From the NCBI GenBank assembly GCA_022457155.1, contig JAJGOT010000311.1, positions 344,501-408,500 of the forward strand: DNA of 64,000 nt. Direction: 5' to 3'. Source of the stretch: Cladopsammia gracilis. Its lineage: Eukaryota; Cnidaria; Anthozoa; Scleractinia; Dendrophylliidae. Under the pieces are notes generated by a model. The model saw nothing but the letters and a program-made list of their open reading frames with translations. It had not been told where the DNA came from and made no database searches. A program made the position numbers and the translations under genes. Shown here in pieces: positions 59,660 through 62,660 of the stretch; the first letter of the stretch is position 1; each line of letters starts with the position of its first letter.

Positions 59660-60628
59660 TCACCGCAGATCTTTCAGTTCTTTCAGATCTACCCATGAGT
59701 TGAATTTATCGCTATACCCGCTCCACTTCACTAACGCTTTACCTTTTCGAGCATCTCGTCGAATCACTTTCTCAATACGAAAGATGGTCTGTTTAGCCTT
59801 CTGCAGCTCTTCCTTATAGAAAGAACCCGTTATCTCCTCACCCAACTCATCTTTCAGTTTATAAGTTATTGGGTTAGTGTATCGAATCTTATTGATAACG
59901 AATGTTTCTTCAGTCCAATTCGGTGTGTAACCTTTATCGAAAACAGGACGTTTGTATTTTGATATTCGAACTTTATCCCCAACTTTAAATTTCGGTTTAG
60001 TATTCATCCGTTTCATCTTACCGTACAGATTTAAGTAAACAGCACTTTCGTTCTTTTTCTTCGACGCTTCCACAGGTGTCATACCGATGCTTCGATGTTT
60101 TGAATTATTGTATTCTTTCAATATCATCGGTAATATATCATAATACACGGTATTGTTTTGAACGGTAAACTGTTTATACATTTTCTCTTTTATCGTACGG
60201 TTCCATCTTTCACAAACACTAGATTTTTCTTCATTCTCTGTCGAATACATCACTATCTTATTTTTATCCAACAGTTCTTTCATATTCTTGTTGTAATACT
60301 CTTTACCCTTATCCACCCACAGCATTTTCGGTTTTCTTCCTTTCTTGAATAACGAATTGAACGCTTCCCTAACGGTCTCTCCTTTTTTATTCTTCAACGG
60401 TACAATCCAACCGTATTTACTGAAAACATCTAACACCATGAGAAGATATCGATATCCCTTATTCCACTTACTTAATTTCTGCATCTCAACAAGGTCAGAG
60501 CACCATATCTCATCGATACCGTTTACAATAACACGCCGCCGAGTAAACTTTCGTCTTATGGGTTTATGCAGCTCATCTGCTAGCTTTTCTTGCCACGTCT
60601 CTACGTTTTTACTCGGCGGCCTTATCCG
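59660..60628 (-). CDS. rve-type integrase with C-terminal chromodomain, in -1 frame to the PLA2 gene
   Basis: It would insert the element into host DNA. The DDE triad is Asp in EIWCSDLVE (codon 60,494-60,496), Asp in LWVDKGKEYY (60,311-60,313) and Glu in VCERWNR (60,209-60,211). The C-terminus (ALVKWSGYSDKFNSWV) is a chromodomain, which may steer insertion to modified chromatin. The first ATG, at 60,484, lies after the first catalytic Asp, so a product begun there would be dead. The open frame runs upstream without ATG to a stop at 60,668-60,670 and overlaps the end of the PLA2 gene in the -1 frame. The start given here is the first -1 codon after the heptamer G_GGA_AAC (60,634-60,628), giving 322 residues. 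Splicing or a non-ATG start are alternatives. Confidence 0.9.
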   Translation of the reverse strand, partial: RIRPPSKNVETWQEKLADELHKPIRRKFTRRRVIVNGIDEIWCSDLVEMQKLSKWNKGYRYLLMVLDVFSKYGWIVPLKNKKGETVREAFNSLFKKGRKPKMLWVDKGKEYYNKNMKELLDKNKIVMYSTENEEKSSVCERWNRTIKEKMYKQFTVQNNTVYYDILPMILKEYNNSKHRSIGMTPVEASKKKNESAVYLNLYGKMKRMNTKPKFKVGDKVRISKYKRPVFDKGYTPNWTEETFVINKIRYTNPITYKLKDELGEEITGSFYKEELQKAKQTIFRIEKVIRRDARKGKALVKWSGYSDKFNSWVDLKELKDLR

Positions 60629-61233
60629 TTTCCCAACCCAAGTTTTTGTTTTACGTCGATAGTATTTCTAGCTAACCAATGACCCCATTGTCGATCACTA
60701 TAGGGCACGCTATCCAAGGCTTTCACCATTTTTCTATCCGCTTCGTTTTTACATTTACGCGGTTCCGGCTTATTTGCGCACACAGAATAATCGACATCAT
60801 GCTGCATCGCTATAGCATCCGTTTTACCCGTCGGCTTATCGTAGATCTCCAGTATTTTACCTGTTTCCGGATCATACGTCAGTTGTGTATCCAAGTCATT
60901 GTATGGTCCTGTGTATTTATGTCCGGGTAATGTCCAACCGCCTTTCGGTTTCGGTAATTTACCGATCATTTTATGAATATCGACACCGCTACCGTGGTGA
61001 AGCGGATCGAGTCTTTTCGATAAGTCTCCTGTGAAACTGTCCAAAGCCTGATCTATATACTTATTAGCGGCTGATCTAATCTTTTTCTTTACAAAGTCTG
61101 ATTCGATGGCTTTTGACGCTCCTATTTTTCCTAAATTGTAAAGACCTTTCATACCAGTTTTCATAGCAATCTCTCCAAGACTATGACTACCTTCCACATC
61201 AAAAAAGCCCCCACCTTGTGGGGGCCCAACTAG
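60622..61233 (-). CDS. PLA2-domain virion protein, in -1 frame to the zinc-ribbon gene
   Basis: The domain resembles the phospholipase A2 domain that parvoviruses and adintoviruses use to leave endosomes. A Ca-binding loop is seen as HKYTGPYNDLD, with Tyr where many viral enzymes have Gly. The catalytic pair is MQHDVDY (His codon 60,799-60,801), followed by a downstream Asp helix (ADRKMVKALD). The N-terminal half is a helical Lys/Ala-rich region. There is no ATG before the conserved region: the frame is open from a stop at 61,246-61,248, the first candidate is a GTG at 61,197, and the first in-frame ATG is 11 codons later. The start given is the first -1 codon after G_GAA_AAC. The gene overlaps the zinc-ribbon gene upstream and the integrase frame downstream. 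It could be made by frameshifting, GTG initiation or splicing. Confidence 0.85.
   Translation of the reverse strand, partial: LVGPPQGGGFFDVEGSHSLGEIAMKTGMKGLYNLGKIGASKAIESDFVKKKIRSAANKYIDQALDSFTGDLSKRLDPLHHGSGVDIHKMIGKLPKPKGGWTLPGHKYTGPYNDLDTQLTYDPETGKILEIYDKPTGKTDAIAMQHDVDYSVCANKPEPRKCKNEADRKMVKALDSVPYSDRQWGHWLARNTIDVKQKLGLGNG
60628..60634 (-). promoter_or_regulatory. Candidate -1 frameshift site G_GGA_AAC (PLA2 to integrase)
   Basis: In the PLA2 frame the codons are TTG GGA AAC, so the canonical heptamer GGGAAAC is in correct phase, one codon before the PLA2 stop TAA (60,622-60,624). The integrase is in the -1 frame. The same heptamer drives frameshifting in several retroviruses (known). 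No strong downstream stem is obvious to me. Confidence 0.7.
61207..61225 (-). promoter_or_regulatory. Perfect GC-rich hairpin downstream of the zinc-ribbon/PLA2 slip site
   Basis: On the transcript strand GCCCCCAC, AAG, GTGGGGGC form an 8-bp stem with a 3-nt loop, extendable by two G-U pairs. Its 5' arm begins 7 nt after the last base of the heptamer G_GAA_AAC (61,239-61,233). This is within the usual spacing for frameshift-stimulating stems. It is the most stable hairpin visible in this AT-rich element. Confidence 0.75.
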
Positions 61234-61431: not shown

Positions 61432-61884
61432 CATGAAATATTTTTTAATAAACTTTTCATTATAGTTTTGATTATCAATTTTGAATCTACTTAAGCAATC
61501 ATAAAATGATTTTTTGTAAATATTATCAAGAAAATATAAACAATAATAACCGCATCTTACTGATTTTATAGCTTGAAACGGGTAACCGATATTATATTGA
61601 TATTCCATGCGCAAGCTATTAGCATAATCAATGAAATCTTGAGGTGGTGGTAAACAAAACGAATCAAAATAATATATGAGATTTTTATTTTTTACAAATG
61701 TTGCTACCCAATGTGTACCGTTCCCTATCTTATCATCAAGATTAATTATACAACAACCTGTTTTGCCTGTCGGATGATTTACCGTTTGATCTCTCGAAAA
61801 AATACCTTTGAAATCAGGTATTTTTAAATATTTTATCCATTCAAGGAGGTCAAAATTACTTAGCGGTACATCCCTAAATTTGGG
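61429..61884 (-). CDS. Adenain-like maturation protease, in -1 frame to the core gene
   Basis: A C5-type cysteine protease that in adenoviruses and Polintons trims capsid proteins during maturation. Counting from the first -1 codon, the catalytic His is at residue 58 (GTHWVA), the acid Asp at 74 (YYFDSF), the oxyanion Gln at 104 and the nucleophile Cys at 111 (VRCGYYCLYFL). The spacings (16, 7) are close to those of adenovirus adenain (His54, Glu71, Gln115, Cys122). There is no ATG near the start; the only in-frame Met early enough lies after the acid residue. The frame opens at a TGA at 61,891-61,893, inside the end of the core gene, exactly at the heptamer A_AAA_AAC. Length from there is 151 residues. 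Confidence 0.9.
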   Translation of the reverse strand, partial: PKFRDVPLSNFDLLEWIKYLKIPDFKGIFSRDQTVNHPTGKTGCCIINLDDKIGNGTHWVATFVKNKNLIYYFDSFCLPPPQDFIDYANSLRMEYQYNIGYPFQAIKSVRCGYYCLYFLDNIYKKSFYDCLSRFKIDNQNYNEKFIKKYFM

Positions 61885-62660
61885 TTTTTTTCACCCCATG
61901 ATCCGTAAAAAGGTGGAGGAATGTATGGATATTTTGGAGAAATCTGTAATCCTCTACCTCTCGATGCTCTCGATGGTACTTGTAATCCTCTGCCACCAAC
62001 GTCCGTTGGTGGACTTACAGATAATCCTTTTCCAAAAAGTTTTGAAGCTAATTCGATAGCCATAGGAATTCCGATTGCAGCAAGTGTTCCTAAAAATCCT
62101 CCATTTATCTGTCTTTGCGTAGGTTTGAATGTTATACCGCTACCGGTTTGCATACCTTTTTGCACAACTTGCGCTTGCCCTTGTGTTAATCCTTTGATAG
62201 CTAATAGTTGAGGAAGAAAATCAAACGGTATCGTAATTCCGTTACCAAAAATCTTATCGATACCGAGACTTCCCAAAGCGCCTAGCGCTCCTGTAGCTAA
62301 ATGAGGTAGTACTTTTGTAGCTGCTTTTGTAGCTAAAGGTACTACCTTTGTTGCCGCTTTTGTAGCAAAAGGCAGTAACTTTGCACCGAGTGACAACAGC
62401 GAAGACCACAAACTTCCACCTACGGTGATCGCTTTACGAATCTGTGTTTTAGATATTTTGATATCGGTACCGGTACCGTTTTTTAGCGCTTTATTAATCT
62501 TATTAATCTGGGTTTTTGTCAACATCAACTCATGCGACCCTTTCAAATTATTCTTACTCAACCTTATCGTAATTTGAGAGTTATCGTCATATGCTTTTTT
62601 AAGTTTATGTAACTGTCCTTGAGACAGATTTACTCCATATGGTAAATACGCTGTAGCCAT
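61860..62660 (-). CDS. Virion core-type protein (adenovirus pX/pVI-like role)
   Basis: 266 residues from ATG 62,660. The N-terminal half (IRLSKNNLKGSHELMLTKTQ and IKISKTQIRKAI) has the repeated K/L-S-K-x-Q pattern seen in adintovirus core proteins. A hydrophobic/basic centre follows with two copies of (F/L)ATKAATKV. The C-terminal half has a Gly-rich NGGFLGTLAAIGIPMAIELA segment that could be membrane-active. It is probably packaged with DNA or lines the capsid. It is transcribed after the capsid gene with a 33-nt AT-rich gap. The last codons contain A_AAA_AAC in frame, and the protease overlaps in the -1 frame. Confidence 0.8.
   Translation of the reverse strand: MATAYLPYGVNLSQGQLHKLKKAYDDNSQITIRLSKNNLKGSHELMLTKTQINKINKALKNGTGTDIKISKTQIRKAITVGGSLWSSLLSLGAKLLPFATKAATKVVPLATKAATKVLPHLATGALGALGSLGIDKIFGNGITIPFDFLPQLLAIKGLTQGQAQVVQKGMQTGSGITFKPTQRQINGGFLGTLAAIGIPMAIELASKLFGKGLSVSPPTDVGGRGLQVPSRASRGRGLQISPKYPYIPPPFYGSWGEKNPNLGMYR
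61884..61890 (-). promoter_or_regulatory. Candidate -1 frameshift site A_AAA_AAC (core to protease)
   Basis: The core codons are GAA AAA AAC CCA, so the heptamer AAAAAAC is in correct phase, 7 codons before the core stop at 61,860-61,862. The protease frame opens at this very site. The same heptamer works in mouse mammary tumour virus and human astroviruses (known). Only a weak AU-rich stem can be drawn downstream. The seven-A run is also a place where a sequencing or mutation indel could occur. Confidence 0.65.

Follow-up and report, generated by a model that had tools for sequence, protein, structure and literature searches.

Retroelements characteristically reach their protease and integrase through serial −1 frameshifting. 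In betaretroviruses and deltaretroviruses (e.g., MPMV, MMTV, and HTLV), gag-pro-pol is expressed through two successive −1 shifts, and the transposases of bacterial IS1- and IS3-family elements are also made by −1 frameshifting. The element described here resembles IS1 and IS3 as a DNA transposon that would limit its transposase via −1 slippage at an A-rich heptamer; in contrast, those elements are bacterial, use one site, and carry no virion proteins. With MPMV, MMTV, and HTLV it shares two predicted −1 shifts in one chain, the heptamers GGGAAAC and AAAAAAC, a stem or pseudoknot downstream, an integrase in last position, and a protease that would be reached by a shift. Unlike these viruses, it is a DNA element with a family B polymerase gene (PolB), its chain begins with a small zinc-ribbon protein followed by a PLA2-like one, and the protease shift falls in a separate gene pair. 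The resemblance to retroviruses is limited to the expression logic.

For adintoviruses, one preprint has used KnotInFrame to propose hypothetical −1 slippage near the 3′ end of Penton and for Hexon-Adenain fusions (PMC11071296). These sites belong to the same virus group and to different genes, and the part of the preprint covered here holds no comparative or covariation test and names no site at the integrase, PLA2, or zinc ribbon. As far as that part goes, it is the only previous suggestion of −1 sites in adintoviruses in the literature surveyed. A named relative of the present element is the Stylophora coral adintovirus, whose recorded integrase (P0071) is a 355-residue protein beginning with Met; the two integrases are 73% identical. 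The evidence presented below makes it highly probable (about 0.9) that programmed −1 ribosomal frameshifting operates at three sites in this Polinton (Maverick/adintovirus-like) element.

Gene layout and overlapping frames

The window, i.e., the whole stretch of 64,000 nucleotides from Cladopsammia gracilis that was analysed, contains a Polinton/adintovirus-like element at 55.4-64 kb. All of its genes, and all features given below, are on the minus strand. The element runs beyond the window edge. Three of its components are those of Polintons/Mavericks: (i) a family B DNA polymerase gene (55401..59573; own ATG at 59573), in which Pfam finds only an N-terminal Rho_N domain and DNA_pol_B_2 (E=1e-39), and which is putatively protein-primed; (ii) a retrovirus-like integrase open frame (59660..60667) with rve (3.7e-11) and chromodomain (Chromo, 1.2e-6) matches; and (iii) an adenain-like cysteine protease open frame (61429..61890), whose Pfam match to Peptidase_C5 is weak (0.0087), while a profile of 7 relatives matches ASFV S273R (4e-7) and adenain (8e-4). 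In addition, there is a zinc-ribbon (Zn) gene (61230..61388; ATG at 61388; DUF5679, Pfam 6.7e-9) and a PLA2-like open frame (60622..61245; Phospholip_A2_4, 1.7e-9). The gene at 61860..62660, with its own ATG at 62660, encodes a core-like virion protein, a label taken from the earlier note; it has many unnamed homologues, gave no match in a Pfam search, and belongs to no named family. The open frame at 62694..63998, which runs off the window, is probably a capsid protein gene, a role assigned by position because no Pfam or PDB sequence match, hexon included, was found.

The genes that bear an ATG have no upstream overlap, as the earlier note had claimed: PolB starts at 59573 and the integrase ends at 59660, Zn starts at 61388 and the protease ends at 61429, and core starts at 62660 and the capsid-like frame ends at 62694. 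In the remaining frames the first Met is residue 95 (protease), 28 (PLA2), and 62 (integrase). The integrase stretch W25-N49 lies upstream of any Met in that frame. These three frames overlap the preceding gene by 31 nt (core 61860/protease 61890), 16 nt (Zn 61230/PLA2 61245), and 46 nt (PLA2 60622/integrase 60667), all in the −1 phase. The claim that each such overlap also carries a slippery heptamer stands in canonical form at two of the three. The core/protease slip region (61875..61890) holds A AAA AAC (61890-61884), C CCA AAT (61884-61878), and A AAT TTA (61881-61875), all in phase, and the PLA2/integrase heptamer, G GGA AAC (60628..60634), is in phase and canonical. At Zn/PLA2, the heptamer G GAA AAC (61233..61239), with a TAG directly after it, breaks the XXX rule and is not canonical in the window; other copies have G GGA AAC. 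A −1 overlap together with an in-phase X XXY YYZ is present at core/protease and PLA2/integrase. Zn/PLA2 and PLA2/integrase each have a structure at a spacing of 5-9 nt downstream of the heptamer, the value in the window being 7 nt, with none that convinces at core/protease.

Elsewhere in the genes of the element, canonical heptamers occur at 9 of 2772 in-phase positions, and XXXAAAC in phase at 1 of 2772. The chance that at least two of three overlaps carry a canonical heptamer is P ~0.003, so that the earlier figure of well below one in a thousand was somewhat too strong for the heptamers alone; requiring all three frames to be −1 lowers it to ~0.0003. The three sites had also been described as successive. 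There are three −1 sites, but they do not form one chain: the Zn gene starts from an ATG of its own, beyond the end of the protease, which leaves the core-to-protease site outside. The best reading of the layout is a double −1 chain headed by Zn (Zn to PLA2 to integrase) plus a separate Gag-Pro-like site.

Slip sites and stems in the Zn-PLA2-integrase chain

The main evidence comes from a comparison of 90 loci (89 copies) of the element's family and of divergent families, and all DNA relatives compared come from this one genome. Two scans of viral contigs, one using the integrase and the other an alignment of integrases, found no relative, and hence there is no independent viral DNA for comparison; a protein search of a phage collection gave no match.

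At the Zn-to-PLA2 junction, a pattern of slip site, stop, and GC hairpin fits 88/90 loci in 44 distinct 38-nt forms; 5 of the 88 have an unusual heptamer or a changed stop, both of which the pattern tolerated. The heptamer is GGAAAAC in 43/88 and GGGAAAC or TTTAAAC in 42/88. In the window, the hairpin (61207..61225) has an 8-bp core stem and a 3-nt loop and begins 7 nt after the slip site, and in 84/88 loci the 5′ arm of the minimum-energy fold runs uninterrupted for 8-10 nt. The arms vary between families yet pair: 139 of 144 cells are paired over 18 unique arm pairs, compared with 110 on average and 124 at most in shuffles, where the shuffles ignore the relatedness of copies and the arms, here and at PLA2/integrase, were picked for best pairing, which inflates paired counts. 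The local fold of 30-40 nt is exceptional (z −2.5 and −3.3, the latter with 0/200 shuffles), and the 100-nt fold is not (z −1.2). Readthrough of the Zn stop codon was rejected, as the 0 frame past the TAG closes after 22 residues without PLA2.

The PLA2-to-integrase junction is −1 in 73 of the 90 loci, in frame (0) in 17, and +1 in none; one set of 30 loci came from a fused database protein query, which favours in-frame copies. Among the first 78 loci, a canonical heptamer lies in phase in 61 of the 62 −1 loci that were scored, and GGGAAAC is kept in 48/48 copies retrieved with the integrase query. Sister families carry A AAA AAC in place of G GGA AAC, with a different stem, at the same site, and stems follow the slip site in nearly all −1 loci. 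In the window this is a 13-bp stem, with its 5′ arm (60608..60620) 7 nt after the slip site and its 3′ arm (60535..60547) 60 nt further, within the integrase frame; its score is matched at 7/2960 positions, its own included. A 100-nt fold that holds both arms has a z of −4.1 (0/500 shuffles), while the 40-nt fold (z −0.5) and a 91-nt fold that cuts the 3′ arm (z −1.4) are unexceptional. The short-loop stems are paired at 73 of 81 cells (shuffle mean 63.6; 0/2000 shuffles equal this) and have two-sided changes at several pairs; some copies of the long-loop set lie in another register, and in the copies that are in register this stem shows one-sided variation only. The strongest local evidence is the stems that follow two of the slip sites, which the earlier note did not mention.

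The integrase start is also informative at the protein level. Over codons W25-N49 in 45 copies, 2, 0, and 9 of 25 sites are variable at codon positions 1, 2, and 3, respectively; because of this bias the ATG-less start is regarded as translated, and it is under protein-level selection. For the database proteins, readout and tail patterns were written after the sequences had been inspected, and one first version matched 1/120; with the final patterns, 20 integrases from other contigs, each <400 aa and with sufficient N-terminal sequence, could be scored, of which 14 read out the PLA2 end in −1 (shuffles averaged 0.25 and never exceeded 3) and 2/20 match a readout in +1 (shuffle average 0.34). 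Among 120 PLA2 proteins, 51 have a tail of the kind that frame 0 would give across A AAA AAC and a 5′ stem arm, 14 tails imply +1, and 13 related A-run tails imply −1.

The core-to-protease site and other explanations

The core-to-protease junction is the weaker of the cases, with tandem slip sites and no strong structure. In the 71 scorable loci of 78, the frame is −1 in 60, +1 in 6, and 0 in 5, the +1 and 0 frames occurring in other families; A AAA AAC is in phase in 37/37 loci with the window-type core. In the window, the stem score near this junction is reached at 268/2960 positions, and the folds have z −2.2 and −2.4 at 100 nt and about 0 at 40 nt. A weak stem (TTTAG/CTAAG) has one two-sided change (locus L008), too little to claim. 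The enrichment of −1 overlaps and heptamers in relatives, on which the earlier note had staked its reading, is thus borne out among divergent copies of the same genome at two of the three sites and less firmly here; overall, these copies support an expression logic by −1 slippage.

At this junction in particular, transcriptional slippage on A runs could join the frames instead, which is unlikely but the most serious of the rival explanations. In other families the A runs vary in length and the copies differ in frame (0, −1, or +1), and at PLA2/integrase a run of seven A is found in 8/17 in-frame loci vs. 3/73 −1 loci. However, GGGAAAC and GGAAAAC lack a long A run, the stems covary and lie at a spacing typical of ribosomal frameshifting, and the window family's core-to-protease A run is constant in 37 copies that match a pattern permitting varied length.

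Expression of PLA2, integrase, and protease via separate transcripts, splicing, or internal initiation is quite improbable. PLA2 does have a Met at residue 28, and the −1 integrase frame begins with Met in some database relatives (e.g., P0014 and P0041), but the window element has no ATG before residue 62 of the integrase or residue 95 of the protease, the integrase codons W25-N49 show protein-level selection, and neither splicing nor initiation explains slip heptamers with compensated stems. Old frameshift damage or an assembly error, splitting one long polyprotein frame by chance, has hardly any likelihood, for although relatives with PLA2 and integrase fused in one frame exist in this genome and among database proteins, the same −1 arrangement and heptamer recur in every integrase-query copy, other families carry another heptamer with another stem at that position, and the stems at Zn/PLA2 and PLA2/integrase are compensated.

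Proposed mechanism and implications

According to the favoured reading of programmed −1 ribosomal frameshifting, ribosomes would begin at the zinc-ribbon ATG and most would terminate just past the first slip site. A fraction would shift one base backwards on G GRA AAC and enter PLA2, aided by the GC hairpin ~7 nt downstream, and part of the PLA2 ribosomes would make a second shift, at G GGA AAC or, in sister families, at A AAA AAC, into the integrase, aided by the second stem. Separately, ribosomes translating core would enter the adenain-like protease frame by slipping at the tandem A-rich site. Protease and integrase would be made in small amounts and joined to structural proteins. The controlled product ratios envisaged in the earlier note are a prediction of this reading, and in some relatives the same proteins are fused in one frame. 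That slippage occurs, how frequent it is, and what role the fusions play, we infer from the arrangement described above.

A broader proposal is put forward tentatively, at somewhat less than even odds: a eukaryotic DNA virus/transposon lineage may have arrived convergently at the complete expression plan of retroviruses. This would comprise a Gag-Pro-like protease shift plus two nested −1 shifts through which the integrase is linked to virion-associated Zn and PLA2 domains for low-copy packaging (cf. Gag-Pol and retroviral integrase), with one-base changes in the slip runs toggling lineages between shifted and constitutive fusion. Serial −1 frameshifting with covarying RNA signals in an animal virus-like DNA transposon would by itself show that retroelement-type expression logic arose outside RNA-templated elements. 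Polintons would gain a level of translational control that annotation pipelines overlook, in the form of ATG-less genes and fused or truncated models. Trans-frame peptides would be its expression signature and would help to test whether Polintons form virions.

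Genes of the element and its copies in the genome

From 55.4 kb to the end of the window, the minus strand carries the genes of a Polinton/adintovirus-like element, namely PolB, integrase, PLA2-like, zinc-ribbon, adenain-like protease and core-like protein genes, and a further minus-strand gene is a probable capsid gene. The PolB protein (55401-59573) has a Rho_N-like domain at its extreme N-terminus (Pfam 1.5e-5). Left of the element lie local direct repeats of 89-166 nt with spacings of 224-502 nt (49283-51990) and a 52-nt inverted repeat (51567-51703). Among the matches listed, named integrase relatives come from corals (Stylophora coral adintovirus, 73%; Oculina patagonica, 73%), which makes a coral the likely host.

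An integrase search of the genome (878 Mb, 1469 contigs) matched at least 120 copies, a lower bound on the element's copy number, most with an open frame of at least 331 residues. Ninety loci were read: 48 integrase-query copies (the 8 best and 40 picked down the ranking, the window counted in), the 30 best found with a database protein that fuses PLA2 and integrase, and 12 more places from the table of that second query. L009 and L062 are one copy, hence 89 copies. Gene modules recombine among L001-L078, the first 78 loci; near-identical integrase starts occur with PLA2 ~97, 67 or 40%, core 79-95% or ~40%, and protease ~90-99% or 50% identical to those of the window.

Frames, heptamers and RNA structure in the window

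The earlier note held that ATG-bearing genes lack an upstream overlap, which is true of PolB, zinc ribbon and core, and that genes without an ATG overlap the preceding frame in -1, which is likewise the case for protease, PLA2 and integrase, none of which has an ATG at its start. Its slippery heptamer in every overlap is borne out in canonical form at PLA2/integrase and, as a tandem of three, at core/protease, but not at zinc ribbon/PLA2, where GGAAAAC is one base off GGGAAAC. The estimate that two canonical hits would arise by chance well below one time in a thousand was somewhat too strong: against the element's own in-phase canonical heptamer rate (9/2772), p is ~0.003 for hits in at least two of three overlaps, and ~0.0003 when all three overlaps being -1 is added. 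Taken alone, these chance figures are suggestive, not decisive.

Of 2960 positions in the region, 20 reach the stem score seen after zinc ribbon/PLA2 and 7 that seen after PLA2/integrase, the site in question being one of them in both counts; the core/protease stem is ordinary (268 positions). In the window, the 30-nt zinc ribbon/PLA2 hairpin has a folding energy of -18.1 kcal/mol (z -3.3). The PLA2/integrase stem is a perfect match of 13 bp, with its 3' arm within the integrase frame after another 60 nt.

The three junctions in relatives

The PLA2-to-integrase frame is -1 in 73 of the 90 loci, +1 in none and 0 in 17, an in-frame count biased by the second query, which favoured such copies; none of the 48 integrase-query copies is in frame. 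The loci form nine clusters at 85% identity, six of which contain -1 members. A canonical in-phase heptamer lies in the overlap of 61 of 62 -1 loci among the first 78, L019 being the exception, and GGGAAAC, which was not a selection criterion, stands at the expected place in 48/48 integrase-query copies. Sister families have A AAA AAC as opposed to G GGA AAC in the window family, with their own stem mostly 5-10 nt past the slip site (examples of arms are GATTTTGAG/CTCAAAATC, GGTTTCGAG/CTCGAAACC and AAGGAGTT/AACTCCTT). In short-loop stems, with arms picked for best pairing and arm pairs of fewer than 7/9 matches excluded, 73/81 cells are paired, which none of 2000 shuffles reaches; L027, also excluded, is without such a stem and L011 has a poor one. 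Seven A instead of six occur in 8/17 in-frame and 3/73 -1 loci; in L018, L022 and L037 the additional A places PLA2 and integrase in one frame, and the downstream stem is still kept. Across 45 copies, the 25 integrase codons from W25 to N49, which precede any Met, vary at 2 first, 0 second and 9 third positions, and this pattern indicates that the ATG-less start of the frame is translated.

At zinc ribbon/PLA2, 68 of the 75 scorable loci among the first 78 are -1, 4 are 0 and 3 are +1; the +1 cases, L033 together with the adjacent L049 and L050, resemble indels of a single base. L049 and L050 (contig C507, ~4.2 kb apart) have in common a ~0.8 kb insertion within the PLA2 gene and an altered zinc-ribbon stop. 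A pattern of slip, stop and hairpin fits 88/90 loci; L014 and L022 do not match it, and in L022 GGGAAAC, a stop and a hairpin are visible by eye further along. In the 88, the heptamer is GGAAAAC (43), GGGAAAC (39), TTTAAAC (3) or odd (3), and the stop TAG (51), TAA (18), TGA (17) or altered (2). In 84/88 loci the 28 nt after the stop fold, at minimum energy, with an unbroken 5' arm of 8-10 nt. When the arms are picked to pair best, a distance of 6 to 9 nt separates the slip from the 8-bp stem, whose loop has 3-5 nt. Its 18 unique arm pairs, which include both-sided changes, have 139/144 cells paired, as against a mean of 110 and never more than 124 in 2000 shuffles; this excess is support rather than a probability, since neither relatedness nor the way the arms were picked is taken into account in the shuffles.

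The core-to-protease frame is -1 in 60 of 71 scored loci, +1 in 6 and 0 in 5. Where the core is of the window type (at least 79% identity), each of the 37 -1 loci has A AAA AAC in phase. Some canonical heptamer occurs in 57/60 -1 loci, which is weak evidence in other families because their overlaps are long and A-rich. In those families the core tail GLLLGxNSPFNxIPLLGAIL is conserved in one frame and the approach to the protease, read in -1, overlaps it (e.g., L010, L021-L024, L037, L042), and upstream A runs differ in length between copies, moving the core body among frames. This layout fits slippage on A runs, whether by ribosome or by polymerase.

Database proteins and the proposed mechanism

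Database proteins were scored with patterns composed after inspecting the sequences. Of the best 120 of 6834 integrase homologues, 41 were too short and 14 lacked the anchor; 20 had fewer than 400 residues and at least 22 ahead of the anchor. A pattern for the PLA2 end (KxKLGLG) read out in -1 fits 14 of these 20 (shuffled mean 0.25, maximum 3), and a +1 readout fits 2 (shuffled mean 0.34). Among 120 listed PLA2 homologues, 51 end as 0-frame reading across A AAA AAC and a 5' stem arm would predict, 13 have a different tail that implies -1 and 14 one that implies +1; 1 is fused and 41 are unclassified. At their start, 13 of the homologues show slip, stop and hairpin read out in -1. In some lineages zinc ribbon and PLA2 share one frame.

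For adintoviruses, PMC11071296 puts forward -1 sites as a hypothesis, both close to the ends of some Pentons and to account for Hexon-Adenain fusions. Where 'frameshift' occurs in PMC8097293, PMC10120064, PMC12721341, PMC8363768, PMC12945077 and PMC6905037, it denotes decay, sequencing error, alignment settings or sequence comparison, not programmed slippage; the word is absent from the main text of PMC8547959 and PMC11071308.

On this sequence evidence, -1 ribosomal frameshifting at zinc ribbon/PLA2 and again at PLA2/integrase, a double shift, is the best supported reading, and with less certainty it may extend to core/protease. Polymerase slippage could join the frames instead, at least at core/protease, but it would not easily act on GGGAAAC and is improbable overall. 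Expression of the downstream frames by splicing or internal starts is a good deal less probable still, as it leaves the stems unexplained. That damage broke one long frame is very improbable, given the identical arrangement in 48/48 copies.

Retroviral and IS-element frameshifting are parallels to the element's -1 sites. Ribosomal frameshifting would here yield a falling series, with zinc ribbon more abundant than its extension by PLA2, and this more abundant than the further extension by integrase; the core/protease shift would tether the protease to the core.
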